DNA of 64,000 nt from an uncultured Flavobacteriales bacterium. Its GTDB lineage: Bacteria; Bacteroidota; Bacteroidia; Flavobacteriales; Flavobacteriaceae. The notes beneath the pieces are model-generated. The model made no database searches. It saw nothing but the letters and a program-made list of their open reading frames with translations, and was not told the origin of the DNA. Position 1 is the first letter of the stretch, and every line of letters starts with the position of its first letter. The stretch is from NCBI GenBank assembly GCA_913020155.1, contig CAJWBA010000007.1, positions 1 through 64,000 of the forward strand, written 5' to 3'. The translations under genes and the position numbers were made by a program. Positions 6,063 through 64,000 of the stretch are shown in pieces.

Positions 6063-6509
6063 TTATTCTGCAATAATTTCAAAGGCAACTTGTACAACTA
6101 CTGTTCTGTGCAAACGAACAGTAGCTTCGTAAGCTCCTAGGCGCTTTATAGTTCTTCCAGGAAGTGTTATAAACTTCTTCTCAATTTCATGACTATTTTG
6201 TTTAAAAGCAAAAGATAAATCTTGACTTCCGATTGAACCAAATAATTTATCACCACTTCCCACTTTAGACTTGATTTTAATTTCAAGTGCTTGTAGCTTT
6301 TCACCAACTTTATTAGCGTCGTCAACTAACTTTTGCTCTTTAAAAGCGCGTTGTTTTAAATTCTCTGCAAGTACTTTTCGACCAGAAGAAGTAGCGATAA
6401 CTGCCTTCCCATTTGGAATCAAGAAGTTACGTCCATATCCATTTTTTACTTTTACGATGTCATCCTTAAAACCAAGGTTTTGTATATCTTCTTTGAGTAT
6501 TAGTTCCAT
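6063..6509 (-). CDS. rplI: 50S ribosomal protein L9
   Basis: MELILKEDIQNLGFKDDIVKVKNGYGRNFLIPNGKAV. Confidence 0.97.
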   Translation of the reverse strand: MELILKEDIQNLGFKDDIVKVKNGYGRNFLIPNGKAVIATSSGRKVLAENLKQRAFKEQKLVDDANKVGEKLQALEIKIKSKVGSGDKLFGSIGSQDLSFAFKQNSHEIEKKFITLPGRTIKRLGAYEATVRLHRTVVVQVAFEIIAE

Positions 6510-6521
6510 TGATCTAAGTTT

Positions 6522-6818
6522 TTATTTTAATAAATCACCTACATAAGGCATTAAAGCTAAATGACGTGCGCGTTTAACAGCTACAGAAACTTTTCTTTGG
6601 TATTTTAAAGATGTTCCAGTCAAACGACGTGGAAGTAATTTCCCTTGCTCGTTTACAAACTTAATTAAAAAATCACCGTCTTTATAATCTACGTATTTAA
6701 TGCCAGATCTTTTAAATCGACAATATTTCTTCTTATTGTTAGTTTCGATATTCAAAGGAGTTAAATAACGTATTTCTCCTTCTTTTCTTCCTTTAGATTG
6801 TTCTTCTATTTTTGACAT
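6522..6818 (-). CDS. rpsR: 30S ribosomal protein S18
   Basis: [16 protein letters not shown]...[30 protein letters not shown]. Confidence 0.97.
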
Positions 6819-47005: not shown

Positions 47006-48775
47006 ATGAAACCAACAAAGCTTTTTGAGTTTATAGAAATTCAAAGAAATAAAATACCACTAGAAAAGTCTGTAACTACAAAATACAATGGGGAATGGCA
47101 AAGCCTTTCAACAGAAGATTTTTATCAAAAAGTACAACAAGTAAGCCGTTCATTAATCAAACTAGGAGTTAAAAAAGGAGATAAGATTGCATTGATATCC
47201 ACTAACAATAGAACCGAATGGTGTATTATGGATTTGGGTATCTTACAACTTGGGGCTGTTACCGTGCCTATTTATCCCACCATCACTGGACCTGAATACG
47301 AATATGTACTCAATCACTCAGAAAGCCAATATTGCTTTATTTCTGATGTTGAAATTCTGGAAAAACTAAACACGGTAAGAAAAAATATCATAAAATTAAA
47401 AGAGGTGTATTCTTTTGATTCTATCCCAAATTGTTCCTCCTGGACTACTCTTTTGAGTGAAGAAGAAGATTCAAAAACACAGGAATTGGTTGAGGCTGCC
47501 AAAGTAGCTGTTAATCCAGAAGATTTAGCTACCATAATTTACACTTCGGGAACAACAGGAGTTCCAAAAGGAGTTATGCTCAATCACCATAACATTGTTT
47601 CCAATGTACTTTCTAGTTCCAAAAGATTGCCCCTTGACATTGGAAAAACACATGCTTTGAGTTTTTTACCCGTTTGCCACATCTATGAGCGGGTAATTCT
47701 TTACATCTATTATTACAAAGGTATTGGTATTTATTTTGCTGAATCCATTGAAAAAATATCAGAAAATCTTCAAGAAGTAAAACCCTTCTTTATGACTGCT
47801 GTACCCAGATTATTAGAAAAAGTTTACGACAAAATTTATGCTAGAGGAGCTGAACTGGACGGAATTAAGAAAAAGCTGTTTTATTGGGCTGTTGACCTGG
47901 GACTTCAATATGAACCCTACGGAGCCAAAGGATTTCTTTATGAATTGAAATTAAAAATTGCTCGAAAACTTATTTTCTCAAAATGGAAAGCAGCCTTAGG
48001 GGGTAACTTACATACCATTAGTTCAGGAAGTGCAGCACTTCAGCCTCGTTTAGCTCGTGTTTTTAGTGCGGCTGGAATTACCATTTCAGAAGGATATGGT
48101 TTAACCGAAACAGCACCTGTTCTTACGGTTAGCGACATCAATAATAGAGGTCTAAAATTTGGCTGTGTTGGAAAACCTATTGATGGCGTTGAAATCAAAA
48201 TTGCCGAAGATGGCGAAATCTTATGTAAAGGGCCCAACGTTATGCAAGGGTATTACAAAGATGAAGAGAAAACCGCTGAAGTAATTCAAAATGGATATTT
48301 TCATACAGGAGATATTGGTGAGATTGATGCTGATGGTTTTCTGAAAATAACCGATCGAAAAAAACAGTTATTTAAAACTTCTGGTGGAAAATACATTGCC
48401 CCTCAGTTGATTGAAAATAAAATGAAACAGTCTCTTTTTATTGAGCAAATTATGGTCATTGGAGAAAATCAAAAAATGCCTGCTGCAATAATTCAACCTG
48501 CTTTTGAATACATAGCTACGTGGATTGAAGATCAAAACCTCAACATTGATTCTTCACCCGAAGTCATTTGTTTATGTCAAGAAGTAAGGGATGCGATTCA
48601 AAAAGATATTGACGAATATAATCCAACATTTGCAAAATGGGAACAAGTCAAGAAATTTGAACTCACTCCTGAGTTGTGGAGCATCGAACTTGGACACCTC
48701 ACTCCTACCATGAAAGTTAAAAGAAAGGTAGTCAAAGAGAGGTACAAAACTTTATTCGATAAAATTTACCAGTAA
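47006..48775 (+). CDS. Long-chain acyl-CoA synthetase (AMP-forming)
   Basis: IIYTSGTTGVPKGVMLNHHN; SEGYGLTETAPV; HTGDIGEIDADGFLKITDRKKQLFKTSGGKYIAP. Confidence 0.94.
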   Translation: MKPTKLFEFIEIQRNKIPLEKSVTTKYNGEWQSLSTEDFYQKVQQVSRSLIKLGVKKGDKIALISTNNRTEWCIMDLGILQLGAVTVPIYPTITGPEYEYVLNHSESQYCFISDVEILEKLNTVRKNIIKLKEVYSFDSIPNCSSWTTLLSEEEDSKTQELVEAAKVAVNPEDLATIIYTSGTTGVPKGVMLNHHNIVSNVLSSSKRLPLDIGKTHALSFLPVCHIYERVILYIYYYKGIGIYFAESIEKISENLQEVKPFFMTAVPRLLEKVYDKIYARGAELDGIKKKLFYWAVDLGLQYEPYGAKGFLYELKLKIARKLIFSKWKAALGGNLHTISSGSAALQPRLARVFSAAGITISEGYGLTETAPVLTVSDINNRGLKFGCVGKPIDGVEIKIAEDGEILCKGPNVMQGYYKDEEKTAEVIQNGYFHTGDIGEIDADGFLKITDRKKQLFKTSGGKYIAPQLIENKMKQSLFIEQIMVIGENQKMPAAIIQPAFEYIATWIEDQNLNIDSSPEVICLCQEVRDAIQKDIDEYNPTFAKWEQVKKFELTPELWSIELGHLTPTMKVKRKVVKERYKTLFDKIYQ

Positions 48776-48804
48776 AATAAACCCTTCATCATGAGGGGTT
48801 TATT
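48776..48804 (+). terminator. Hairpin after acyl-CoA synthetase gene
   Basis: AATAAACCC...GGGTTTATT perfect 9-bp stem; weak downstream T tract. Confidence 0.5.
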
Positions 48805-48810
48805 CTTATC

Positions 48811-48850
48811 AAAATATTATGCACGCATAATTATGCGTGCATAATATTTT
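48811..48850. promoter_or_regulatory. 40-bp perfect palindrome; candidate double operator for the MarR-family regulator
   Basis: AAAATATTATGCACGCATAATTATGCGTGCATAATATTTT; contains two 16-bp dyads ATTATGC-N2-GCATAAT at 48816-48831 and 48830-48845; TACATTTG -7 element at 48855-48862. Confidence 0.75.
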
Positions 48851-48881
48851 TTTGTACATTTGAATTAATTAATCTTATTGA

Positions 48882-49319
48882 GTGAAACAAGTTACAATAG
48901 AATATGCGTTAAGGACTACTTGGCAGTTGATTACAAATATGTACAATGAAAAAGCTATGCAGTACGATTCAACTATGACTATGGGCTTTACACTGCTTTC
49001 TATTGATGCAGAAGGGACACCATCAACAGCCTTAGGTCCAAAAATGGGTATGGAGCCTACCAGTCTTTCTAGAATCTTAAATACCATGGAAAAACGGGGG
49101 TACATTGTTAGAAGACCCAATCCAAATGATGGTCGTGGAGTGTTGATTTGCTTAACTGAACAAGGCAAAGAAAAAAGAGAGCTTTCTAAAAAAACAGTTC
49201 TTGACTTTAACAATTCCATTTTGAATCATGTCGATGAATACAAAATGAAGCATTTTTTTGAAGTAATTGATATCATAAAAATAAAAGTAGAAAAAGACGA
49301 ATTAGTAAATATTAAATAA
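48882..49319 (+). CDS. MarR-family transcriptional regulator
   Basis: 145 aa, GTG start; winged helix STALGPKMGMEPTSLSRILNTMEKRGYIVRRPNPNDGRGVLICLTEQGK. Confidence 0.92.
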   Translation: MKQVTIEYALRTTWQLITNMYNEKAMQYDSTMTMGFTLLSIDAEGTPSTALGPKMGMEPTSLSRILNTMEKRGYIVRRPNPNDGRGVLICLTEQGKEKRELSKKTVLDFNNSILNHVDEYKMKHFFEVIDIIKIKVEKDELVNIK

Positions 49320-49330
49320 TATCAATCCAA

Positions 49331-51127
49331 ATGGAAGAAACAAAAATCAAAACTCAAGGAGGTGGCTTTGTTGTCGATGAAACACTTGCTAAAAACATTT
49401 TTACTCCGGAAGATTTTAGTGAAGAACAACTCATGATGAAAGAGTCTGTTCAAGAGTTTGTAAATCGGGATATTATCCCCAATAGAGAACGTTTTGAACA
49501 AAAAGATTATGATTTAACTCGGGAAATGATGGCCAAAGCTGGTGATCTTGGTTTCCTAGGGGTAGCTGTACCCGAAAAATACAACGGTTTGGGAATGCCC
49601 TTTACATCGACAATGCTCGTTTGTGATTATATTTCAGGAGCCAACGGATCTTTTTCTACTGCTTTTGGGGCACACACAGGTATTGGTACCATGCCCATAA
49701 CGCTTTACGGCAACGAAGAGCAAAAACAAAAATATGTTTCTAAGCTTGCTACCGGGGAATGGTTTGGAGCTTACTGCTTAACTGAGCCAGGTGCTGGCTC
49801 AGACGCTAATTCTGGAAAAACAAAGGCTGTTTTGTCTGAAGACGGAACACACTATAAAATAACAGGTCAAAAAATGTGGATTTCTAATGCAGGCTTTGCC
49901 GATATCTTTATTGTTTTTGCACGTATTGAAGACGATAGAAACATTACAGGTTTTATCGTTCCCAAGGACCTAGAAAATGGGATTACTTTAGGAGACGAAG
50001 AAAAAAAACTTGGTATCAAAGCTTCCTCCACCCGTCAAGTTTTCTTTAACGAAACTGTTGTTCCTGTTGAAAATATGCTTGCAGAAAGAGGAGAAGGTTT
50101 CAAAATCGGAATGAATGCTCTTAATGTTGGTCGTATTAAACTTGCAGCAGCTTGCCTCGAGGCACAGAGAAATACTACAAGTTTAGCAGTTCAATATGCT
50201 ACTGAGCGTGTTCAGTTCAAAACTCCCATTGCACAATTTGGGGCAATACAGTTAAAGCTTGCCAACATGACAACCAATACTTACGCAAGCGAATCGGCAA
50301 GCTACAGAGCTGCATACAATATTGAAGAGAAAATTAACCAACTCTTAGAAAGCGGTCTTTCACATCAAGAGGCGGAACTCAAAGGAGTTGAAGAATTTGC
50401 GATAGAGTGTTCTATTTTGAAGGTTTCTGTTTCAGAAAAAGCCCAAAGCTGTACCGACGAAGGAATCCAAATTTTTGGTGGCATGGGTTTTTCAGCAGAT
50501 GCTCCCATGGAAATGGCTTGGCGTGATGCTCGAATTGGAAGAATTTATGAAGGTACTAATGAAATCAACCGATTACTTTCAATTGGAATGCTTTTGAAAA
50601 AAGGATTTAAAGGCGAGATTGACTTGATGGGGCCTGCTACTGCTGTTGGACAAGAATTGATGCAAGGAATTAAAAGTGCTGAAAATTCCAATGAACTCTT
50701 GAATGAAGAAAAACATTTAATCAAAAATCTCAAAAAAGTATTGCTGATGATTACAGGTTCTGCAGTTCAAAAATTTGGGCCAAAGTTTGATACTGAACAG
50801 CAAATCATTCTTGCCCTTTCTGATATTCTGATAGAAATTTACATCGCTGAATCTACCATTCTTAGAACGGAAAAAAACTGTGCTCGATTTGGTGTGGATT
50901 CTCAAAAAAATCAAATTGAAATGACCCAATTGTATTTATTTGATGCAATTGAAAAAATCAATTCCAAAGGAAAGGAAGCTATTATTTCTTTTGCTGATGG
51001 TGGAGAATTGAAAGGTATGCTTGCTGGTTTAAAGCAATACACAAAATACCAAAATTATCCAAATATCGTTGACTTGAGGAGAAGTATTGCTGCTAAGGTT
51101 ATCGAAGAAAATAAATACCCTTTTTAA
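49331..51127 (+). CDS. Acyl-CoA dehydrogenase family protein
   Basis: CLTEPGAGSDANSGKTKA; KMWISNAGFADIF; IQIFGGMGFS; RIYEGTNEINRLL. Confidence 0.95.
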   Translation: MEETKIKTQGGGFVVDETLAKNIFTPEDFSEEQLMMKESVQEFVNRDIIPNRERFEQKDYDLTREMMAKAGDLGFLGVAVPEKYNGLGMPFTSTMLVCDYISGANGSFSTAFGAHTGIGTMPITLYGNEEQKQKYVSKLATGEWFGAYCLTEPGAGSDANSGKTKAVLSEDGTHYKITGQKMWISNAGFADIFIVFARIEDDRNITGFIVPKDLENGITLGDEEKKLGIKASSTRQVFFNETVVPVENMLAERGEGFKIGMNALNVGRIKLAAACLEAQRNTTSLAVQYATERVQFKTPIAQFGAIQLKLANMTTNTYASESASYRAAYNIEEKINQLLESGLSHQEAELKGVEEFAIECSILKVSVSEKAQSCTDEGIQIFGGMGFSADAPMEMAWRDARIGRIYEGTNEINRLLSIGMLLKKGFKGEIDLMGPATAVGQELMQGIKSAENSNELLNEEKHLIKNLKKVLLMITGSAVQKFGPKFDTEQQIILALSDILIEIYIAESTILRTEKNCARFGVDSQKNQIEMTQLYLFDAIEKINSKGKEAIISFADGGELKGMLAGLKQYTKYQNYPNIVDLRRSIAAKVIEENKYPF

Positions 51128-51154
51128 TTTTAGAATTTATTTTGTTTTGTTTTT

Positions 51155-51188
51155 AAAAAATCCTACAATCATGATTGTAGGATTTTTT
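51155..51188 (+). terminator. Rho-independent terminator after acyl-CoA dehydrogenase
   Basis: Perfect inverted repeat AAAAAATCCTACAATCATGATTGTAGGATTTTTT. Confidence 0.85.
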
Positions 51189-51229
51189 ATATTTGACTAG
51201 ATTCATTAATAGCTCGTTAAATCATCCAA

Positions 51230-52631: not shown

Positions 52632-53648
52632 TTAGTAGTAGTTGTCAATCTGTAAGCGGTTGAATTGACCTCTTCTATTTCTTCTGTAAATAGAAAAGTC
52701 GAAAGTGATAAATAATTCAAACATGCTTGGAGAATATACAATACCTGGGGATTGAAAAGGAAAATTATATAAAAGACCAAAATCAAAATTCTCAACAGCC
52801 AGACCTATTGAAACTCCAATGTTATTTAGTGCAAAGGCATCGATTGATGTAGCTTGTTGACTGAGTCCAATTGAAAATTCACCTAGTTGAAAATCTTGAG
52901 AAAGATAAATCTTCAATGCATCTCCATATTTAGTAAAAGATCCATAAGCATATAAATATGAGTAACGAGGCAAGTACCTTCTTTCATAAGGATTCAAATC
53001 AAATTCATAAGCACCTTGAATAGAGACTTCAACCGGTTTTAAATCTTCAGTTTCTTTGTTATAAGAAGTATTAGGTTTATTTAAATGCTTAAAAGTCAAG
53101 CCAGCTAGAAACTGATCAGTATGTAAAATAAATGAAGCACCTAAATCGAAATAATTTACACTACTAATATTTGGAGCCAACGGATCCATTGTCTCGGGAT
53201 TTATAGAACCTGGTATGAGTAATTGATCTTCAAAAATTAGATTATCTGGGTTTACCGTCGAACTACCAAAACCTACTGTGACAGCTGGTAAAAAAAACGT
53301 GTTATTATCAAATTGAAGTTTATATACATAACTGAGATTAACTATATTAGTCGTTAAACCAGTGGTTTGAATTTTAAAGGAGTTAATGTCTATACCAAGA
53401 CTAAATCCCTGATTTTCGAAATTTGCCGATCCAAAGAAATACTTGTTATCCATCCTGTCGTATTCATTCAATTTCAACGAATTATATAAAACTCCCACTT
53501 TATTTAGACTATTAAACCCAAAATAACTTGGATTAGATTTTTGCATAAACTTGGAATGATTAACAATATAATCCTCTTGAGCATAAAGTAATCCTCCAAA
53601 ATGAAATGCAAAAAGAAAAATAATATATATTAATTTTATTTTAATCAT
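52632..53648 (-). CDS. PorP/SprF family type IX secretion membrane protein
   Basis: YIVNHSKFMQKSNPSYFGFNSLNKVGVLYNS; terminal beta-barrel features; start codon immediately after the adhesin stop. Confidence 0.88.
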   Translation of the reverse strand: MIKIKLIYIIFLFAFHFGGLLYAQEDYIVNHSKFMQKSNPSYFGFNSLNKVGVLYNSLKLNEYDRMDNKYFFGSANFENQGFSLGIDINSFKIQTTGLTTNIVNLSYVYKLQFDNNTFFLPAVTVGFGSSTVNPDNLIFEDQLLIPGSINPETMDPLAPNISSVNYFDLGASFILHTDQFLAGLTFKHLNKPNTSYNKETEDLKPVEVSIQGAYEFDLNPYERRYLPRYSYLYAYGSFTKYGDALKIYLSQDFQLGEFSIGLSQQATSIDAFALNNIGVSIGLAVENFDFGLLYNFPFQSPGIVYSPSMFELFITFDFSIYRRNRRGQFNRLQIDNYY

Positions 53649-56600
53649 TTATCTTATAATAATAAAGGTTCCACTTTTCTCAACTCTTGTCACTTCGTCA
53701 AGAAGTAGACCAGAGGCGGTATAGATATAATAGGGTGAATCGTTGTCATTGCTTCCATCCCAACCTATTAATTCAAATCCTACAGGGTTACTTACATCTT
53801 GCTCAAAACCATAATCATTATATAAAACATTACCACGATAATCATAAACAGTAAATATCATATCACTAAACCCATTAAACAGGGGTTTAAAGTGACTATT
53901 CATAGTATCAGTACCACCAGGAGTGAATACATTGGGAGCCCTAATATTATAGCCTTTTCCTATTACAATTGGCATAGTTTCTTCCTCAGAGCAACCAATT
54001 GAATTAGAAATTCGTAAAGTTGCAAAATAAGTTCCAGATACTCCATAAACATGTCGAACTTGAGTAATACTTACCGCAGCAGATTCTACAATTAAAGGGG
54101 TTGAAGCATCTCCAAATATCCATTCTGATTTCACAAATGGATCAGTTGATGTATTCTCAAAAGTAACCTCTTCACGTGCCCCAATAACGCCATTAATTCC
54201 AAAAGCTGGAGCGTCATAAGTAAAGCTTGGTTCTCCTATTCCCCTACTGATTTCTACTTCAATCCAACAACCCTCTGCATTTACAATCTTGAGTTGAGCG
54301 GTTTCTACTGCATTGGTAATTCCAACTGACCAAGAACGATCACTCAACTGAATAACATCATTTCGGTTTATAAGAATATCATCATAGTAGAAATCTAGAA
54401 TTCCATCATTATTGTCATATATATCTATCTCTAATCTTCCTTGGGCTGTACCACAAAGATCATTATCAACAAATGGACCATCAATGACAAAAAGTTCCCT
54501 GTTTGGTGTTACCTGGATAATTTCTTCGTAGTATAAATAATCATTATTTAGGAAATTACCAGTTCCTTTACAAGCATCAGCCAATTTACTCATACTCTGT
54601 AAAATCATCTTATAGTTTCCAGGAACTAGATCTCGTAAATCAGCTTTACCGGTGAACTGTGATAGTGGACGATAGCCTGGATTAGTTGCTGCTGTGAGAG
54701 TAGTTGGATCCTCAATAAACCAAGTAATTTCAATAGGTAGTTGACCACCATCAATAGCAACACCAATTTGTCCATTAAGACCACCACTTGTGCAGTCAGG
54801 AGGTAGTGATTTAACTTTTAGACTTGAATCATCAGGATCTGTGAGATTACCTGTGATACTAAATGGTGTAACTTTGTCTTCAACTTCTATATCGATTGGG
54901 GTAGCGCCTGCAGCAGTATCACAGGAATCATAAGTACAATCATTTGAATCTGTTATTTTTACACAATAGCTACCAGGCTCGGCATCAAGAATATCTTTAG
55001 AAAAGAAAGTTTCTACTCCCCTTAAGTTATCTAATGGAGTGAAAGTCCATACCCATATGTAAGTTGGTAATCCAGTGTCAGTAAATGGTACACCACCAAC
55101 AGCGTCACCTATAATTGTACCACGTCCTGAACAAAGATCTGTTGTAATTCCTAAAGTATCCCCGGTATATTCTATTGGTAAATAGTCTAAAATATCAAAG
55201 AAGAATATTTCTGAGCATGCGACTAGGGTACTAGTTGCAGGAAGGGTTGGTGGAAATCTTTCTTCAACAGTAAGAGTATAACTGTCAGGCGGTAATAGAG
55301 GGTAACGATAGAGAAAATTTGGAAGTTTTGGATCAACTATTCCATCACCATTCATATCCAAAGCTGCAGGTATTGGAATTACAGCTCCAGTGTTCTGAGA
55401 TATTAAGGAAATATTAAAACTACTTGAAATTGAACCTCTTCTCAAGTTTGCATTAATTTTAAAACTTATGTCAGAGGTAAATGCGTTTCCATAATTATCA
55501 CAAAGAGCTGGTTTATTTTCAATTGTTTTGAAATTCACAATTTCAATTGAACTTTCCTGAAGAATAATTGGGGGATCAGTAGCTACAGTCCCTCCACAGT
55601 TTTGTGAGCGGGCGTCTGACACTTCTGCTCGATAAACCCCTTCTGGTAAATCAGATACTGTGGCATTACCATCCAGAGAAGGAATAAGTACAAATTCGAT
55701 GTTTGTTGTATCAGTAGAAGTAGTTATTCCACCAGTTGTTGAGCTAATTGTAGTTACTACCGGTTTCTTTTCAAACCATGAAATACTTAATGGTGGTACT
55801 ATATTTTCAATGTTTAAAACAATTCTACTAGTATCATTTCCGCAACCAACCGGTGTAACATCCCAACCAATATTAAGCGGGTTATCGTTTCCAATTACTT
55901 TAACTTCAAAATTAGGATCAGGTGTGGGTGTCAAAAGACATCCATTACCATCAGTAATATTATAATTATATATCCCCAGACCAGTCAATGGTATTGAAAC
56001 TGATTCATTAGGATTTGCTCCCCAAGCTTTGAAAATATTGGTACCATTCGAAGCTAGATAAACTCGAATCTGAACTTGTTGAGAATCTGCAAATGTATCA
56101 GGCCCAACTTCTCTAAAGGTTACACTTCCATCAGTTGGAACAGAACAATCAATATCTATTACATCTATTTCAAACTGCAGGTCTGGAATAACATTAAAAG
56201 TTATAGCAGTAATTTGAGAAGTTACAGAACATCCAAATGCGTCCTCTATAAGAACATTAGTAGCTATGGAGCTAATTAGAGAAGTATCAATATTGTCAAA
56301 CACCACTCTTCTATCTCCTGGCGTTAAAGAACTCTTAACTAAAGCACCTCCGTTCAATGTAACTCTGTAAGGACCTCTGTTTGGTGAACCTCCAACTACG
56401 TTAAACTCAACCAATCCGAAGTCTCCATTACAAATAGGATTATTTCTATTTCCTGTATTTTCAACAAGGAACATTGGGTCAGGGTTAATTACCTCAACTG
56501 TTTTTATCACCGAACAAGTATCTCCGTCTGGACCTGTATCTTGTAAATTGAAAGTATAAAGACCAGGTCCTCCGTCAGCAACAAGTATTGTGCCTCCAAT

Positions 56601-59600
56601 ATTACTGATAGTAGAAACAACTGGAACAACTGGAGTAATGGTGTAATTACTATTTCCACCACTGGCTATTAAAGTGAAGTTAGCATCTGTATCACCATTA
56701 CATGCCAAATTGTAAACAAAGTCTGCAGTACTTGAAGCAACACCGGTAGAGTTATCTACTAGGAATCCTACAACAACTGCATTTAGCTCTAGAACAGGGA
56801 ATCCACCCACCGTAAACGGACGTGTGTCAGAACAACCCAAAATTAAGTCCGTAACTGTTACAGTATATACATCTGGAGGTAGATTATAAATATTAGGACT
56901 TACTCCAATTATCCCGGCAGAGGACGTGCTTTGCCATTTGTATGAGAATACATTTGATCCTCCAGAAAATGCGCTTTGGAAAGTAGCACCTGTACCTCGA
57001 GTCAACTCAATACTACCATTTCCAACTGTTCCGGTTGCACAATAACTGTTGGTAACTCCTTCGTTTAGATCCCAATGATTAAAGCTCAATGAGGTTGGCA
57101 CTCTAAAAGCTTCACGAACTGCTACCGTACATGACTGATCGGTAACTTCAACGATGTAGTCATCACCAATGGCAAGTCCTGTATAGGTGTGTTCTCCTGG
57201 TTTTACTATTGGTGGCCCAATCTGAGCTCCATTATCATCCTCTAAAATAAAGGTGTAAGGAGGGGTGCCACCGGTCACAGTAACCTGTGCAGAACCAGAA
57301 CAAAGATTCACACCCACCACTAATTCTGGTGGTTCGGTTACAGTAATTACTGCAGATTGGTCGGAACAACCGTTGAGATCAACTGTAAGAGTATAATCAC
57401 CGGCTTTAAGATTAAATATACTTAGACTTGAACTTGTATAACCATTTGGTCCTTGCCAAAGGTAATTATAATTCAAAGCTCTATTTGCTTGGGTTGTAAC
57501 TAAGGTAGTACTCAAACTTGTAGTTTGAGTAATATCTACAGATGTATTTAGTGGAATTCCACCAATATCTGCTTCCAAAGATATCCCACCAACTATAGGT
57601 GTTGCTGTTACATAGGGTTCAACCACAGGACCTGAGATAACAACTCCATCATTAATTACTTTTGCAACCAGATTGTTAACTACAATTAAAGTTTCAGGGA
57701 TACCACTTCCATATGGATCAGCTTTTATAGTATACTCAAAGGTATTACCTGCTGAAGTTACTCGAATTATATCACCTATGGTTGTAGTACCTGAAAAAGA
57801 TATTTGATCTATTTGTTGAACACTCAACATACCACCTCTTATACGATTACTAAATCCAAGTGCTGCTTCACCTGGAATTATAATCGACCCATCTGATGCA
57901 TCAAAACAACTTACATTGGTTACATCATTTGTAAGTATGTAATTTGAATCGATCACAGGAGTTGGTATCACGCCAACACTACCTCTTAAAACAATAGAAG
58001 GAGAGCATTTGCCAGTGAATGTTACTATATATGGATAAATTGTAGTCCTTGTAATTACTACTGAAGGTATACCTCCTATTGTTAATCGATCAGTAAATCC
58101 ACCAAACGATACATTTACACCATTAGGTTGCCCGTTTGGCCAGGTAACAGCTGGAGGTCCTCCTGCTGCAGGATTATATATGTATTGAACATCTATTATT
58201 GGTGTTAAATTACAAACAGGAGTTTGAACTGCAGTTCCGGCAATTAAAACCAATTCAGGTTTTGGGGTAACTGTAATGGTTCCATTTGCAATAACTGGTG
58301 AACATCCAATTGTCGTTACAGTATAAATCCAAGGAGTTAATGTAGTTGAAGAAAGAGAAGCTGATGCCTGGGCAGTTCCTGATATCACAACTGTTTTTGA
58401 TGTAGTTATTGTATAAGCTATTCCGGGAGGTAGTCCCGTTACTATGGCACTTTCAGCTCCGTTCTTTAATTCATAAACAATATCTGTAAGACTCTCTGTT
58501 GTTGGTAAACCTCCCACACAAATTGTTGGAAAGTCTGATCCGGGAGCAGAAATTAAATCCAATACATCTTCGGGTTTAACCTCAATTCTACCAGTGAGAG
58601 TTATTTCGGGCAAACAATTACTATCACGTGTTATTATTTCGTATTCGAAAATTGTTGTTGTTGTTAGGGTTGCAGATGGACTTGGCTTTCCAGAAATAAT
58701 GTATTGTGTTCCTGAGAATACTCGTGATATTGACAACACTGGTCCAATGAGTGCCGGTGAAGGTGAAGTCCAGTTAAACGTAATACCCTCAGCTCCTCCT
58801 CCAAATTCGTAAATAATTGGCACTATATCTTGATCGACACAAACAGCACCTCCAAATCCAGTCTGATTTGCTGTTGTTGCAGTCGATATTAAGGTCAAAG
58901 TTGGAAGTGATTGAACCTCTATAGAACCATTTATGGTGGAGGTAGAACAACCACCGAATGTGGTAATCGTATAATTGTATGTAATTGTAGGAGAAACTAA
59001 TGATGTAGCTGAAACTGATGGCACCCCATTAATAATAATAGATGTAGCAGTCGAAGATGGTGAGATTCCAGGTGGGAGTCCACTAACAGTAGCTCCTGTT
59101 GTTCCTCCTCCAAATTCGTAAACTATCGGAAGAAAATTTGAAGTTTCTAGCTCTAAGGGGTTATTGTTGTCTCTAACACAAATCACCTGACTGTCTGTTG
59201 TTGGTGAGGAAACTAGAGTTAAAGTTTGATTAGGATTTATTTGAATACTACCTGTTAAAACAATTTCAGGGATACAATCACTTCCAAGAGTTTCAACTTG
59301 GTAGTTATAATAGGTGGTTTGCGTGACGTTAGTAGTTGGTATTCCAGAAAGAATAATTTGAGTTCCTGTATTAGTTTGAACAAATCCTGAACCAGCAAAT
59401 GACAGGGTATTTGAACCTACCCAAGAAAAATTCATTAATGTTGCTCCTCCACCCATTTCGTAAACAATAGTTTCCATTGGAGTACCATCACATATCGCAT
59501 TGATTCCAGTTTGATCTGCTGAGGTTACCGAACTTGTTAAGCTCAAGGTTGGTAGAGAGTGAACTTCTATAACACCTAAAGCTAGAGTATCTGAACATGT

Positions 59601-62600
59601 TCCGGTAGTTGAAATTATATAATTATAAATTACAGTTGGCGAAGCTATTGTGGTTGCTGAAGAATCGACAAATCCATTGATCAAAACTGTATTTGAGATT
59701 GTTCTGTTGTGAATTAAACCGGGTGGTAATCCTATAATGTTATAATTAGTTGCTCCACCACCCAATTGATACTCTATGGATACAAAACTTAATGTATTTG
59801 CAGTAGCTGGACTATCTTGATCGTTCACACAAATCGTTTGATTGTCAGAATTGACTGCTGATATGAGGTCAATCGTTTGATTTGGATTTATCTGAATACT
59901 TCCTGTTAAAATAATTTCAGGCTCACAATTACTTCCTACAGTTTCGATTTGATAATTATACATAGTGGTTTCTGTAACGTTGGTAGTTGGAGTTCCAGAA
60001 ATTACAAATTGGTTTGTACCAGATGATAAAGCAGTTACTCCAGATCCAGAGAGTGTATTTGAACCTAACCATGTGAAATTGACTTGAGTAGTAACTGGAA
60101 TTGTAGAACTGTGTTCGTAAATTATGGTTTTTATTGGCTGAGCATCACATATTGAATTTAAACCAACTTGATTAGCAGTAGTTGCTGTAGTTACTAAAGT
60201 TAATTCCGGTTGTGAAAATACAGTTATAGAACCCGATGCAGTAGCGGATGCACAACCTGCAGGGGTTGTTATTATCTGATAATTGTATGTGAAGGTTGGG
60301 GTAGGAATTGCCGTTGCAGTTCCTGAAAGAATAACTCTATTTAAGGCTGTGAAAGTTGGAGTTATTCCAGGTGGAAGTCCTGTAACTGTAGCACCCGTTG
60401 CTCCTCCTGATAATTGATATTCAATTGGATCGATTGCAAAAGTTACTGCCGGATTACCTCCAACACAAATTGATTGATTTTCAGCCCCTGAGGTTATTAT
60501 ATGTGAAATTTGATCCAAAGGAGTTATTGTTATTGTACCTGATATTGGAGAGGGAACAGCGTTACAGCCAAACAAGTTTCCTAATAAATTAATCTGATAA
60601 TTATAAACAGTAGTAGTTGTAACATTTTGATTTGGAGCCAATGGAGTTGAAATAGTTATTAACTGCGTTATTGAATTAAAATCAACATCTAACCAAGACG
60701 GTGTCGTTGGAGTAACTATTGCTATCGCAATGGCACCTACCGTTGAATAAACAATATCAGTCATTGTTTCGTCATCACAAATAACTTGATTTAAAACCCC
60801 AGATTGATAACTTGCCGTTGTTCTGGGTTGTACCGTTATTGTTCCGCTCACAGAGCTACTTCCTGTACAATTTGGCCCTGTTGTTATTAGTTCGTAAATG
60901 TATGGTCTTGGAGTGGCCAGGGTAATCGAGGGAGTTCCTGAAATTTCATAATATGCTGGTGGTGTAATGATTTGAGTATCACTTATATCAAGGAAGGTTG
61001 CATCGTCAGATGATATTATGTTAAATGCTATACCTGCATTAGCGTGTTGAATCTGAATTAGATTTGTACCAGCAGTATAAAGGACAGTGAATTGAGCAGC
61101 GGGTAATTGTGCGGTTAAAAATGTATTAATTTCTGCTGCTATTTGAATATTTGTCGCTGTATTTGGTGTTACATATGTATAAGGAGTATTGTTGATGTTA
61201 AAAATAAAGGTATCACTAACAGCAGTTGTATCTGCAACTCCTCTTAGAAAGTCAACTGTAAATTGAGATAGTTGAATTTGTTGGAAAAGATTTCCACTAA
61301 TTCCAGGAGGGAATGTACTTGATGCTGTTTCTCCCAGTCCAAATGCAGGGTTAAATACTTCAAATCGAATTGGAGCTAAAGGTTCTGATGAGCATACAAA
61401 AGGATTAAGGTTGGCTCCTGCTGCAGGAATTATGTCCGGTGTTGGCTCAACTTCAATTGAAATTTGTAAAACTGCATCTGCACAGTTTGCACCTATAGTA
61501 ACAAGGTTAACAACAAAAATTGTTGGAACAACAACAGTTTGACTGATTTGTCCTGTAATTTCAAACTGGTTTACTGTTCCGCTAGCAGACCCAGATAATA
61601 TTAGTCCGTTTGGTAATGGTGTAAGAGGATCTACTCTTAAAGTAAACGCATTAGTGATATCAAGAGTCAATAAAGTTGCAGGAGGTGTATAGGATGCCCC
61701 ATTACATATTGAATTTGCCCCAGTATTATTTGCAATCCCATTAACTATTGTTATCGATGCAGATTCCTCAATTTCAATAATACCAGTGGCACTTACAACC
61801 GCACAGTTAGCGGCAGGAGCTTGTGTTGTTATTACATAAGGGTATCGCCCTGCTGGAATACTATTTATAGGGGTGCCAGATATGGTTAGTGTTTTTTGTA
61901 ATGGTGTTGTTAGAGGTGGTGCGATATCAACTGAATTCCCTACCGGTGTTGATGGTGCTAAAATAAAAGAATCTCCTCTTTTCCCTGTACCACTTGGCTC
62001 TATAGATAATAAAGGAGAAGTATAAGTGGCTACAAAATTTGTAGTTCTTAAGTTAATGTCATCTCGTAATCCTTCACCAACAGTGTCTAAATCATTTCCT
62101 GGTCCGGTAGTAACGAAGTTATATGTAAGGTTATTTATTTGAATCGAATAAATTTGTCCAGCACTAAAAGCTGTACCTGTATTTGATAAGTTCAATGAAG
62201 TAGACTGGGGAGTAATATCCAATATAGGAATAATTCCTGTCGGAAGACCTGTAACAGTTACTGCATCTGCAGCTCCTCCTATTTCATAAGTAATTGAACT
62301 AATTGCAGTATTTCTACAAATTGATGTTGCTCCTATTTGAAGATTAGAATTAAAACCAGATGTTAAAACAATTGTAGGTGGACCTGGAACATTTATTACA
62401 TAATTTACTGTTGATCCTGGACAAAGAGCAGGCTCAACAGTAATGATTATGTTACCCGAAAATCCAGGCTCAAAGTCTAAGAATAAGTCGTTATTAGCCA
62501 GGGGAGTAAGTTGAAAAGTTACGGTATTAATAAATGTAGTTGAACTGACTAGTCCTACAGGGCTATTTACATACCAATTTACTTCCTGACTTGATCGTAA

Positions 62601-64000
62601 TGTGGTAGAAAATCCACCATCAGGAATCGGACATTCTGGTAGAGCTGTTATGGGGGTTACGTCTGTAATTGGTCCATTGGTTGGACCAATACTGATTGTT
62701 GATGTTGACCAGTTTCCAAATCCTCCATCACAATCAACTGGACGAACTTGTAGGTCAAAAGTTCCCCACCATCCAATGTTCCAAGTTATTATACCTGTTG
62801 CTTGATCTATCGTACCAGGGGTAGCTACAGTTAATGAACCTGGTGCAATATTTTGCATTCTCCATTGAAGGGAACCATAATCATTAACATTAATTACATT
62901 ATCACTAGCAGTAAAAAATTGTGTTGGTAAAGTAGAGGTATCTATCTGACATATAGGTACAATCCCTGTTGTAGCTCCACTACAAATATCTGCATCTATA
63001 ACTACGGGTGGATAAAGATCTGATAATGGATTACCCGGAACAGTTTCAGGAATCACATCAATTACTACTGAGGTCCATGAAGATACACCTGAACCACAAC
63101 CAATTGATCGAACTCGAATAGTGGACGAACCAGTAAATGTGGTATTCCATCTCATCGTTCCGCTTCTTATAATAATATTATTAGTTGGCAGATTAAATTG
63201 AGTCGATTGCCCAGCAATCATCGGAGAAACTGTAGTACTAAACGTTACAGTAGTAAGTGCAGATTCAATAACAATTTCGTCAGTAGTTCCATTATAAATT
63301 GCATTTACTTCAGTATTAAGTGAAATTTTTCTTGCTAAATCAAAACCAATTTGGTCAGTGGTCGCAATTAATAATGTTGAAGTTGAAGTATATGATGTAG
63401 TAATATTTTGAGGGGTTGTAGTAATTGTTACTGTGTATGCTTCTCCAACAACGGGCAATGTTAATGTATTTAATTGTACAGTAGTTTCTTGAAAACTGTT
63501 ATTTATCATTGTTCCTGCTGCAGGAGGAGAGGATTCAAATTCGTATGAATTGGACAATTGATTAAAAGTGTTGTCAATATAACAGGCATAAAAGTCTGTT
63601 TCCTGTGGAATTCTAAGTGGAGGTCGTGCTTGACAAACCGTATTATTATACCAACGAACGGGGGTAATTGCAGTTATGGAAGCAATAGAGCTCATTGCAG
63701 ACGACAGCACCTCATAACCAGGTAAATTTGTGCCTTTTCTAATGAAATTCGGTTGAATTGCATCAGGTGTAACTTGAATGGAGTATCTCTCGTTTATTGG
63801 GGTACAATTAGATAATGGATTCAATACAGTTACTACATTAAAATTTGTGGAATTATTTACAGTACCTGAAACAGTAAATGTTCTTGAAGCCACACCGATT
63901 AGTCTATACCAACCTGGAAATCCTAAACCACCAACAGCAAAGGGACCAATAACAGTACCTACTCCTGATATTACAGGAAGTAATCCTGGATCAAGACCTG
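53649..64000 (-). CDS. Giant SprB-like adhesin with PKD domain and T9SS type B (gliding-motility-associated) C-terminal domain; N-terminus outside window
   Basis: NVFTPGGTDTMNSHFKPLFNGFSDMIFTVYDYRGNVLYND...GWDGSNDNDSPYYIY C-terminal domain; SprB-type repeats (CNGD..G...); frame stays open past the annotated GTG start at 63893 to the window end. Confidence 0.92.
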   Translation of the reverse strand, partial: GLDPGLLPVISGVGTVIGPFAVGGLGFPGWYRLIGVASRTFTVSGTVNNSTNFNVVTVLNPLSNCTPINERYSIQVTPDAIQPNFIRKGTNLPGYEVLSSAMSSIASITAITPVRWYNNTVCQARPPLRIPQETDFYACYIDNTFNQLSNSYEFESSPPAAGTMINNSFQETTVQLNTLTLPVVGEAYTVTITTTPQNITTSYTSTSTLLIATTDQIGFDLARKISLNTEVNAIYNGTTDEIVIESALTTVTFSTTVSPMIAGQSTQFNLPTNNIIIRSGTMRWNTTFTGSSTIRVRSIGCGSGVSSWTSVVIDVIPETVPGNPLSDLYPPVVIDADICSGATTGIVPICQIDTSTLPTQFFTASDNVINVNDYGSLQWRMQNIAPGSLTVATPGTIDQATGIITWNIGWWGTFDLQVRPVDCDGGFGNWSTSTISIGPTNGPITDVTPITALPECPIPDGGFSTTLRSSQEVNWYVNSPVGLVSSTTFINTVTFQLTPLANNDLFLDFEPGFSGNIIITVEPALCPGSTVNYVINVPGPPTIVLTSGFNSNLQIGATSICRNTAISSITYEIGGAADAVTVTGLPTGIIPILDITPQSTSLNLSNTGTAFSAGQIYSIQINNLTYNFVTTGPGNDLDTVGEGLRDDINLRTTNFVATYTSPLLSIEPSGTGKRGDSFILAPSTPVGNSVDIAPPLTTPLQKTLTISGTPINSIPAGRYPYVITTQAPAANCAVVSATGIIEIEESASITIVNGIANNTGANSICNGASYTPPATLLTLDITNAFTLRVDPLTPLPNGLILSGSASGTVNQFEITGQISQTVVVPTIFVVNLVTIGANCADAVLQISIEVEPTPDIIPAAGANLNPFVCSSEPLAPIRFEVFNPAFGLGETASSTFPPGISGNLFQQIQLSQFTVDFLRGVADTTAVSDTFIFNINNTPYTYVTPNTATNIQIAAEINTFLTAQLPAAQFTVLYTAGTNLIQIQHANAGIAFNIISSDDATFLDISDTQIITPPAYYEISGTPSITLATPRPYIYELITTGPNCTGSSSVSGTITVQPRTTASYQSGVLNQVICDDETMTDIVYSTVGAIAIAIVTPTTPSWLDVDFNSITQLITISTPLAPNQNVTTTTVYNYQINLLGNLFGCNAVPSPISGTITITPLDQISHIITSGAENQSICVGGNPAVTFAIDPIEYQLSGGATGATVTGLPPGITPTFTALNRVILSGTATAIPTPTFTYNYQIITTPAGCASATASGSITVFSQPELTLVTTATTANQVGLNSICDAQPIKTIIYEHSSTIPVTTQVNFTWLGSNTLSGSGVTALSSGTNQFVISGTPTTNVTETTMYNYQIETVGSNCEPEIILTGSIQINPNQTIDLISAVNSDNQTICVNDQDSPATANTLSFVSIEYQLGGGATNYNIIGLPPGLIHNRTISNTVLINGFVDSSATTIASPTVIYNYIISTTGTCSDTLALGVIEVHSLPTLSLTSSVTSADQTGINAICDGTPMETIVYEMGGGATLMNFSWVGSNTLSFAGSGFVQTNTGTQIILSGIPTTNVTQTTYYNYQVETLGSDCIPEIVLTGSIQINPNQTLTLVSSPTTDSQVICVRDNNNPLELETSNFLPIVYEFGGGTTGATVSGLPPGISPSSTATSIIINGVPSVSATSLVSPTITYNYTITTFGGCSTSTINGSIEVQSLPTLTLISTATTANQTGFGGAVCVDQDIVPIIYEFGGGAEGITFNWTSPSPALIGPVLSISRVFSGTQYIISGKPSPSATLTTTTIFEYEIITRDSNCLPEITLTGRIEVKPEDVLDLISAPGSDFPTICVGGLPTTESLTDIVYELKNGAESAIVTGLPPGIAYTITTSKTVVISGTAQASASLSSTTLTPWIYTVTTIGCSPVIANGTITVTPKPELVLIAGTAVQTPVCNLTPIIDVQYIYNPAAGGPPAVTWPNGQPNGVNVSFGGFTDRLTIGGIPSVVITRTTIYPYIVTFTGKCSPSIVLRGSVGVIPTPVIDSNYILTNDVTNVSCFDASDGSIIIPGEAALGFSNRIRGGMLSVQQIDQISFSGTTTIGDIIRVTSAGNTFEYTIKADPYGSGIPETLIVVNNLVAKVINDGVVISGPVVEPYVTATPIVGGISLEADIGGIPLNTSVDITQTTSLSTTLVTTQANRALNYNYLWQGPNGYTSSSLSIFNLKAGDYTLTVDLNGCSDQSAVITVTEPPELVVGVNLCSGSAQVTVTGGTPPYTFILEDDNGAQIGPPIVKPGEHTYTGLAIGDDYIVEVTDQSCTVAVREAFRVPTSLSFNHWDLNEGVTNSYCATGTVGNGSIELTRGTGATFQSAFSGGSNVFSYKWQSTSSAGIIGVSPNIYNLPPDVYTVTVTDLILGCSDTRPFTVGGFPVLELNAVVVGFLVDNSTGVASSTADFVYNLACNGDTDANFTLIASGGNSNYTITPVVPVVSTISNIGGTILVADGGPGLYTFNLQDTGPDGDTCSVIKTVEVINPDPMFLVENTGNRNNPICNGDFGLVEFNVVGGSPNRGPYRVTLNGGALVKSSLTPGDRRVVFDNIDTSLISSIATNVLIEDAFGCSVTSQITAITFNVIPDLQFEIDVIDIDCSVPTDGSVTFREVGPDTFADSQQVQIRVYLASNGTNIFKAWGANPNESVSIPLTGLGIYNYNITDGNGCLLTPTPDPNFEVKVIGNDNPLNIGWDVTPVGCGNDTSRIVLNIENIVPPLSISWFEKKPVVTTISSTTGGITTSTDTTNIEFVLIPSLDGNATVSDLPEGVYRAEVSDARSQNCGGTVATDPPIILQESSIEIVNFKTIENKPALCDNYGNAFTSDISFKINANLRRGSISSSFNISLISQNTGAVIPIPAALDMNGDGIVDPKLPNFLYRYPLLPPDSYTLTVEERFPPTLPATSTLVACSEIFFFDILDYLPIEYTGDTLGITTDLCSGRGTIIGDAVGGVPFTDTGLPTYIWVWTFTPLDNLRGVETFFSKDILDAEPGSYCVKITDSNDCTYDSCDTAAGATPIDIEVEDKVTPFSITGNLTDPDDSSLKVKSLPPDCTSGGLNGQIGVAIDGGQLPIEITWFIEDPTTLTAATNPGYRPLSQFTGKADLRDLVPGNYKMILQSMSKLADACKGTGNFLNNDYLYYEEIIQVTPNRELFVIDGPFVDNDLCGTAQGRLEIDIYDNNDGILDFYYDDILINRNDVIQLSDRSWSVGITNAVETAQLKIVNAEGCWIEVEISRGIGEPSFTYDAPAFGINGVIGAREEVTFENTSTDPFVKSEWIFGDASTPLIVESAAVSITQVRHVYGVSGTYFATLRISNSIGCSEEETMPIVIGKGYNIRAPNVFTPGGTDTMNSHFKPLFNGFSDMIFTVYDYRGNVLYNDYGFEQDVSNPVGFELIGWDGSNDNDSPYYIYTASGLLLDEVTRVEKSGTFIIIR
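57960..61000 (-). repeat. Alternating two-unit Ig/PKD-like repeat array in the giant adhesin (about 640-660 bp per pair)
   Basis: Near-identical text at unit boundaries GSIQINPNQT / GSIQINPNQT / GRIEVKPEDV near 59881, 59231 and 58571. Confidence 0.75.

Follow-up and report, generated by a model that had tools for sequence, protein, structure and literature searches.

What does a perfect 40-bp palindrome do immediately ahead of the gene for a MarR-family regulator? The window, by which we mean the whole 64-kb stretch of DNA that was analysed, is part of contig C7 of genome G000 (assembly of 1.70 Mb, 80% complete) and belongs to Candidatus Arcticimaribacter, a genus placed in the marine NS5 group within the Flavobacteriaceae (PMC9122927). 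We propose that the downstream MarR protein very probably regulates its own gene through this palindrome, an operator that would control marR and the acyl-CoA dehydrogenase gene fadE and might be released by an acyl-CoA.

The palindrome and its locus

A repeat search recovered the palindrome at 48811-48850, with two 20-nt arms (48811-48830 and 48831-48850) that are 100% complementary and have no spacer between them. No longer perfect palindrome occurs in the 64-kb window, and the base composition of the window predicts only 2.5e-7 gapless palindromes of this length. As originally predicted, the motif ATTATGC-N2-GCATAAT is present exactly twice, at 48816-48831 and 48830-48845, with centres 14 bp apart. 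The full dyad unit has 18 bp, TAnTATGC-N2-GCATAnTA, and the palindrome comprises two such dyads with the A/T flanks of both. The putative distal (auxiliary) operator dyad TATTATGCACGCATAATT spans 48815-48832, its core TATGCACGCATA (48818-48829) lying at about -49 to -38. The putative promoter-proximal operator dyad AATTATGCGTGCATAATA spans 48829-48846, with the core TATGCGTGCATA (48832-48843) at about -35 to -24, and is the one whose position is conserved across genera. Each dyad is symmetric except for its two central bases, which in the window read AC and GT and are mirror images. Adjacent near-symmetric dyads with mirror-image centres automatically give rise to a long palindrome; the real units are the dyads, and the 40-bp symmetry is merely a by-product.

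The genes on either side, all on the plus strand, are those named in the original prediction. The upstream neighbour encodes a FadD-like long-chain acyl-CoA synthetase of 589 aa (47006-48775; PF00501, 6e-74), which scores 7e-96 against a FadD11-like NCBIfam model, under the cut-off of that model. A separate terminator-like hairpin (48776-48804, plus strand, -14.8 kcal/mol) indeed lies behind this gene, and a similar one stands at the same place in most congeners. On the other side of the palindrome, the -7 box TACATTTG (consensus TAnnTTTG) occupies 48855-48862 on the plus strand as predicted, with four intervening bases rather than the 5 bp first noted, and places the predicted transcription start near 48867.

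The marR frame opens with a GTG codon at 48882, 31 bases past the palindrome in agreement with the prediction, and extends to 49319, encoding 145 aa. The product carries a MarR winged-helix domain (PF01047, 1.4e-10; 41.4 bits against a cut-off of 24.6) and aligns with its orthologues from this GTG codon onwards. Alignment of the orthologues revealed that a segment containing TSLSR and PNPxDGRGV, the expected recognition helix and wing, is nearly invariant. Characterised MarR proteins show only distant similarity to the window MarR, and a specificity for acyl-CoA is not readable from its sequence. After a gap of 11 bp follows fadE (49331-51127), encoding an acyl-CoA dehydrogenase of 598 aa (NCBIfam NF058590, 727 bits against a 600-bit cut-off); marR and fadE are predicted to share one transcript.

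Some further features of the locus may be recorded. The marR start codon is GTG or TTG in the clade of the window (L001-L007) and mostly ATG in the other clade of the genus (L009-L016), and the GTG/TTG start could lower repressor synthesis. A second long perfect palindrome, of 36 bp (TAAAAAATCCTACAATCATGATTGTAGGATTTTTTA, 51154-51189), stands 26 bp past the acyl-CoA dehydrogenase gene and looks like a two-way terminator. At 52632-63893 on the minus strand, a PorP/SprF-family gene (TIGR03519) adjoins a gene whose product is repetitive, 3414 aa long and without an NCBIfam match; the two form a type IX secretion-type pair.

The dyad before orthologous marR genes and its wider regulon

Of 100 related genomes, 79 contain a MarR match, a few of these being weak. 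Comparison of orthologous promoters, the check on which the original prediction depended, revealed a dyad upstream of marR at all 110 loci examined, with at most two core mismatches. These are 30 whole-genome loci and 80 named loci (Flavobacterium, Zobellia, Maribacter, Hyunsoonleella, Leeuwenhoekiella and others), about eight of the latter repeating genomes of the first set. Up to two mismatches affect the promoter-proximal core in L006-L008, and three loci near the genus of the window (L153, L154, L160) have a core with one mismatch. The last three also present another array variant, in which two degenerate dyads with TATTC half-sites lie about 13 bp from each other. The dyad sits ~145 bp ahead of the aligned MarR protein start in L024 and L028, and ~110 bp ahead in L017 and L018.

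Its distance to the promoter box is nearly constant. In 76 of the 80 named loci the core lies 23 or 24 bp from a TAnnTTT(G/A) box (23 in the window); the exceptions are one locus each with 22 and 25 bp, and L170 and L196, in which the dyad used for the measurement was a second one lying upstream. The TAnnTTTG box of Flavobacterium psychrophilum occupies -12 to -5 (PMC9723704), so the proximal core of the window would fall over the -33 element, which, judged from sequence, is the position expected of a repressor.

The dyad also co-occurs with the regulator. An exact TANTATGCNNGCATANTA site is missing from 21 of 23 genomes in which a MarR orthologue is absent or represented just by a weak distant match (G072, G092, G096), and is present in 9 of 18 genomes with a distant orthologue. 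One exception is G096, whose exact site adjoins etfB and whose congeners have marR. The presence of a palindromic element in marR's own promoter at every locus, its fixed spacing from the -7 box in nearly all of them and its absence from most genomes without the regulator support the reading as an autoregulatory MarR operator.

Two further cases deserve mention. G070, the other exception, has two exact dyads (L255, L265) and no detected MarR orthologue; one of these dyads precedes a secreted protein gene. In G006:C2 a second MarR copy (L109; 64% identical, site at 6312, ORF 6343-6798), either a paralogue or from a contaminant contig, has a window-like neighbourhood, purL-fadD-marR-fadE, but its dyad is single and perfect.

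Beyond marR, the strict motif TAYTATGCNNGCATARTA yielded 61 sites in 47 genomes, compared to none for the reversed control. By coordinates, 31 sites precede marR. The other 30 were placed from the surrounding sequence, G061:C210 excepted; representative neighbour genes were annotated and the remainder assigned by sequence likeness. Of all 61, 21 lie ahead of etfB-etfA, for the most part between these genes and a divergent pyruvate dehydrogenase E1-beta gene, and four ahead of a nitronate-monooxygenase-like flavoenzyme gene, with enoyl-CoA hydratase next in one case. The rest precede a KAS-III-like gene (two), a TonB-dependent receptor gene (one) and a subtilase gene (one). At four loci of other genera that were read at length (L102, L103, L107, L108), the gene order is marR, fadB, fadA, fadE. 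The electron-transferring flavoprotein (ETF) accepts electrons from acyl-CoA dehydrogenases, which makes the set of sites coherent. Comparison thus places the motif before both beta-oxidation and ETF genes and strengthens the predicted link to fatty acids, the genome of the window contributing marR-fadE only.

The genome-wide search proposed with the original prediction succeeded in relatives, through the etfBA sites, but gave no further site in the window's own genome. There, within the 80% that is assembled, only the two known dyads appear at up to one mismatch, and up to three mismatches give 48 sites against 50 for the control, with no second regulon member above chance. The assembly is missing etfB. 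In the clade of the window, etfB has no good site in G008, G010, G013 and G018; in the genus's other clade, three members do have an etfB site, with one mismatch. No fadBA was found adjoining marR in the genus, which has only ~30%-identical FadB-like proteins elsewhere. The array may hence serve a circuit reduced to one promoter, although in a genome that is 80% complete and lacks etfB in its assembly this is only suggestive. As a separate observation, etfBA and the pyruvate dehydrogenase E1-beta gene diverge in many Flavobacteriaceae with the dyad in the gap between them (L084-L092, L110-L118), so that the regulator might also touch pyruvate dehydrogenase.

Copy number of the dyad and rival readings

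Most genera have a single dyad before marR. Among 400 genomes of the family, we found 26 pairs of perfect cores no more than 30 bp apart, one per genome, and none in the control. All but one of the 26 stand directly before a marR orthologue, the G191 pair (spacing 32) being elsewhere. Of the 25 pairs before marR, 24 have a spacing of 27-30 bp and come from 17 genera besides that of the window; 14 bp occurs in the window only. G082, from a different family, has a 28-bp pair before marR too. Within the genus of the window, 14 of 16 members possess three dyads at exactly 14 bp, so that the outer pair is 28 bp apart; the promoter-proximal dyad of these arrays is the best preserved and the middle one the worst. 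The remaining two members, the window (L001) and L008, have two dyads. The dyad on which the operator part of the double-dyad prediction rests is present at 110 of 110 loci, whereas the nested pair proved to be lineage-specific, most relatives having a single dyad.

A tree of MarR and acyl-CoA dehydrogenase groups the window with L002-L004, all three-unit, with support (91/88) that is not decisive; the seven-member clade around these four has full support (100/100) and leaves L008 outside. If an array like that of L003 (centres AC, AA, GT) loses its middle unit, exactly the AC, GT pair of the window is left. In the simplest history compatible with these sequences, the window and L008 would each have lost one 14-bp unit, a direction of change that we infer, and in the window this loss would have produced the perfect 40-bp palindrome. 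A more distant relative, L210 (64% identity), has three 14-bp units as well, so such arrays may have arisen more than once.

The palindrome might instead be an intrinsic terminator, in which an 18-bp RNA stem, an AAUU loop and a T run halt read-through from fadD. Its RNA folds at -22.6 kcal/mol (z -5.9) with a T run behind, but the strong fold arises because symmetric units are repeated, fadD already has its own hairpin, and a terminator scan did not call the palindrome. Moreover, promoters of other genera that have one dyad give hardly any fold in the corresponding stretch (median -2.5 kcal/mol) and still conserve the dyad and its spacing to the -7 box, and dyads precede etfBA too, often within divergent gaps. 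We regard a terminator as very improbable. A search for a conserved hairpin with a U tract at the palindrome found the hairpin in the genus of the window only. It is also improbable, though less so, that the assembly collapsed a three-unit array into two and that the perfect palindrome is partly an artefact. The three-unit state of the nearest relatives and the match to an L003-type array without its middle unit would fit a collapse; against this, the whole array (~50 bp) is shorter than one short read, congeners with near-identical units were assembled with three, and L008 has two units also.

A further reading accepts the operator but lets it hold one dimer at a time, the overlapping dyads serving as alternative sites that raise occupancy statistically and without cooperativity; we consider this a real possibility, somewhat short of evenly balanced. 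Centres 14 bp apart correspond to 1.33 helical turns, so two dimers would be rotated by 120 degrees against each other and their outer contacts would share a few bases, and the spacing may be too tight for both simultaneously. Where other genera have two perfect dyads, these are separated by 27-30 bp, and a 28-bp spacing avoids this overlap; the middle dyad of three-dyad arrays is degraded, as if only dyads spaced by 28 bp worked together. However, both adjacent dyads are perfect in the window, and the MarR protein MepR sets a precedent with probable two-dimer binding at neighbouring sites of mepA (PMC3617543). Two dimers co-bound on the nested dyads, as originally predicted, are plausible. 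A bolder scheme, which we hold to be rather unlikely, is that two or three dimers of the Arcticimaribacter repressor line up on overlapping dyads as a phased chain, each rotated by 120 degrees relative to its neighbour at 14-bp steps, giving a steep self-limiting switch. If true, this switch would have evolved at essentially one promoter while the wider beta-oxidation regulon seen in other Flavobacteriaceae (etfBA and others) disappeared in the clade of the window.

Proposed mechanism and comparison with known systems

For the autoregulatory operator, which remains our preferred reading, we propose that one MarR dimer would bind each TAnTATGC-N2-GCATAnTA dyad. The proximal dyad, whose distance from the -7 box is fixed, is predicted to overlie the -33 region; the bound repressor would therefore keep RNA polymerase off, and marR-fadE would be silent. 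Fatty-acid activation might then yield the ligand, most likely a long-chain acyl-CoA, that frees the operator and allows acyl-CoA dehydrogenase to be made, as the pathway and the analogy with CouR suggest. The second dyad, centred 14 bp upstream, would be an auxiliary site peculiar to this lineage, bringing in a second dimer or increasing occupancy, and probably represents the remnant of a three-dyad array after loss of one 14-bp unit.

The literature searched, subscription journals and regulon databases lying outside its scope, yielded no description of any regulator of fatty-acid degradation for Flavobacteriaceae, nor of a Bacteroidota MarR protein in such a role, and the string TATGCATGCATA only in a nematode paper. 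Beta-oxidation genes of Flavobacterium psychrophilum are strongly induced by fish mucus and plasma (PMC9723704). The element is of an ordinary kind, very probably a MarR operator, with a regulon that is provisionally taken to be undescribed and an unusual, evolving array. A candidate regulator, an operator consensus and a core regulon (marR-fadBA-fadE, etfBA) are now offered for testing in cultivable strains. The series of one dyad, two at 27-30 bp, three at 14 bp and two at 14 bp constitutes a natural experiment, which bears on the growth and shrinkage of operator arrays at a single promoter.

Several known regulators invite comparison. FabT is a MarR protein of fatty acid synthesis in Firmicutes, and FadR and PsrA are GntR and TetR proteins, respectively, of fatty acid degradation in Proteobacteria. 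Like the proposed regulator, all three are fatty-acid regulators that act through operator dyads, but the latter two lie outside the MarR family. Identity with FabT was rejected, as the window MarR scores 20 bits against a curated cut-off of 200. The consensus operator of SlyA is TTAGC-N2-GCTAA. Similar to the dyads of the window, SlyA/MarR-type operators have two 5-bp half-sites separated by two free bases and lie over the regulator's own promoter; the window differs in its half-site (TATGC instead of TTAGC), in the beta-oxidation pathway and in the repetition of dyads at a 14-bp period within the genus. MepR of Staphylococcus aureus, the repressor of mepA, likewise is an autoregulated MarR protein that probably binds as two dimers, at strong and weak promoter sites, but it governs multidrug efflux, recognizes the signature GTTAG and has no constant 14-bp array of two to three dyads (PMC3617543). 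CouR of Rhodococcus resembles our proposal as a MarR repressor of a CoA-dependent catabolic pathway and is freed by an acyl-CoA thioester (PMC4737184); its pathway, however, degrades aromatic acids, and for the window MarR an acyl-CoA ligand is putative.
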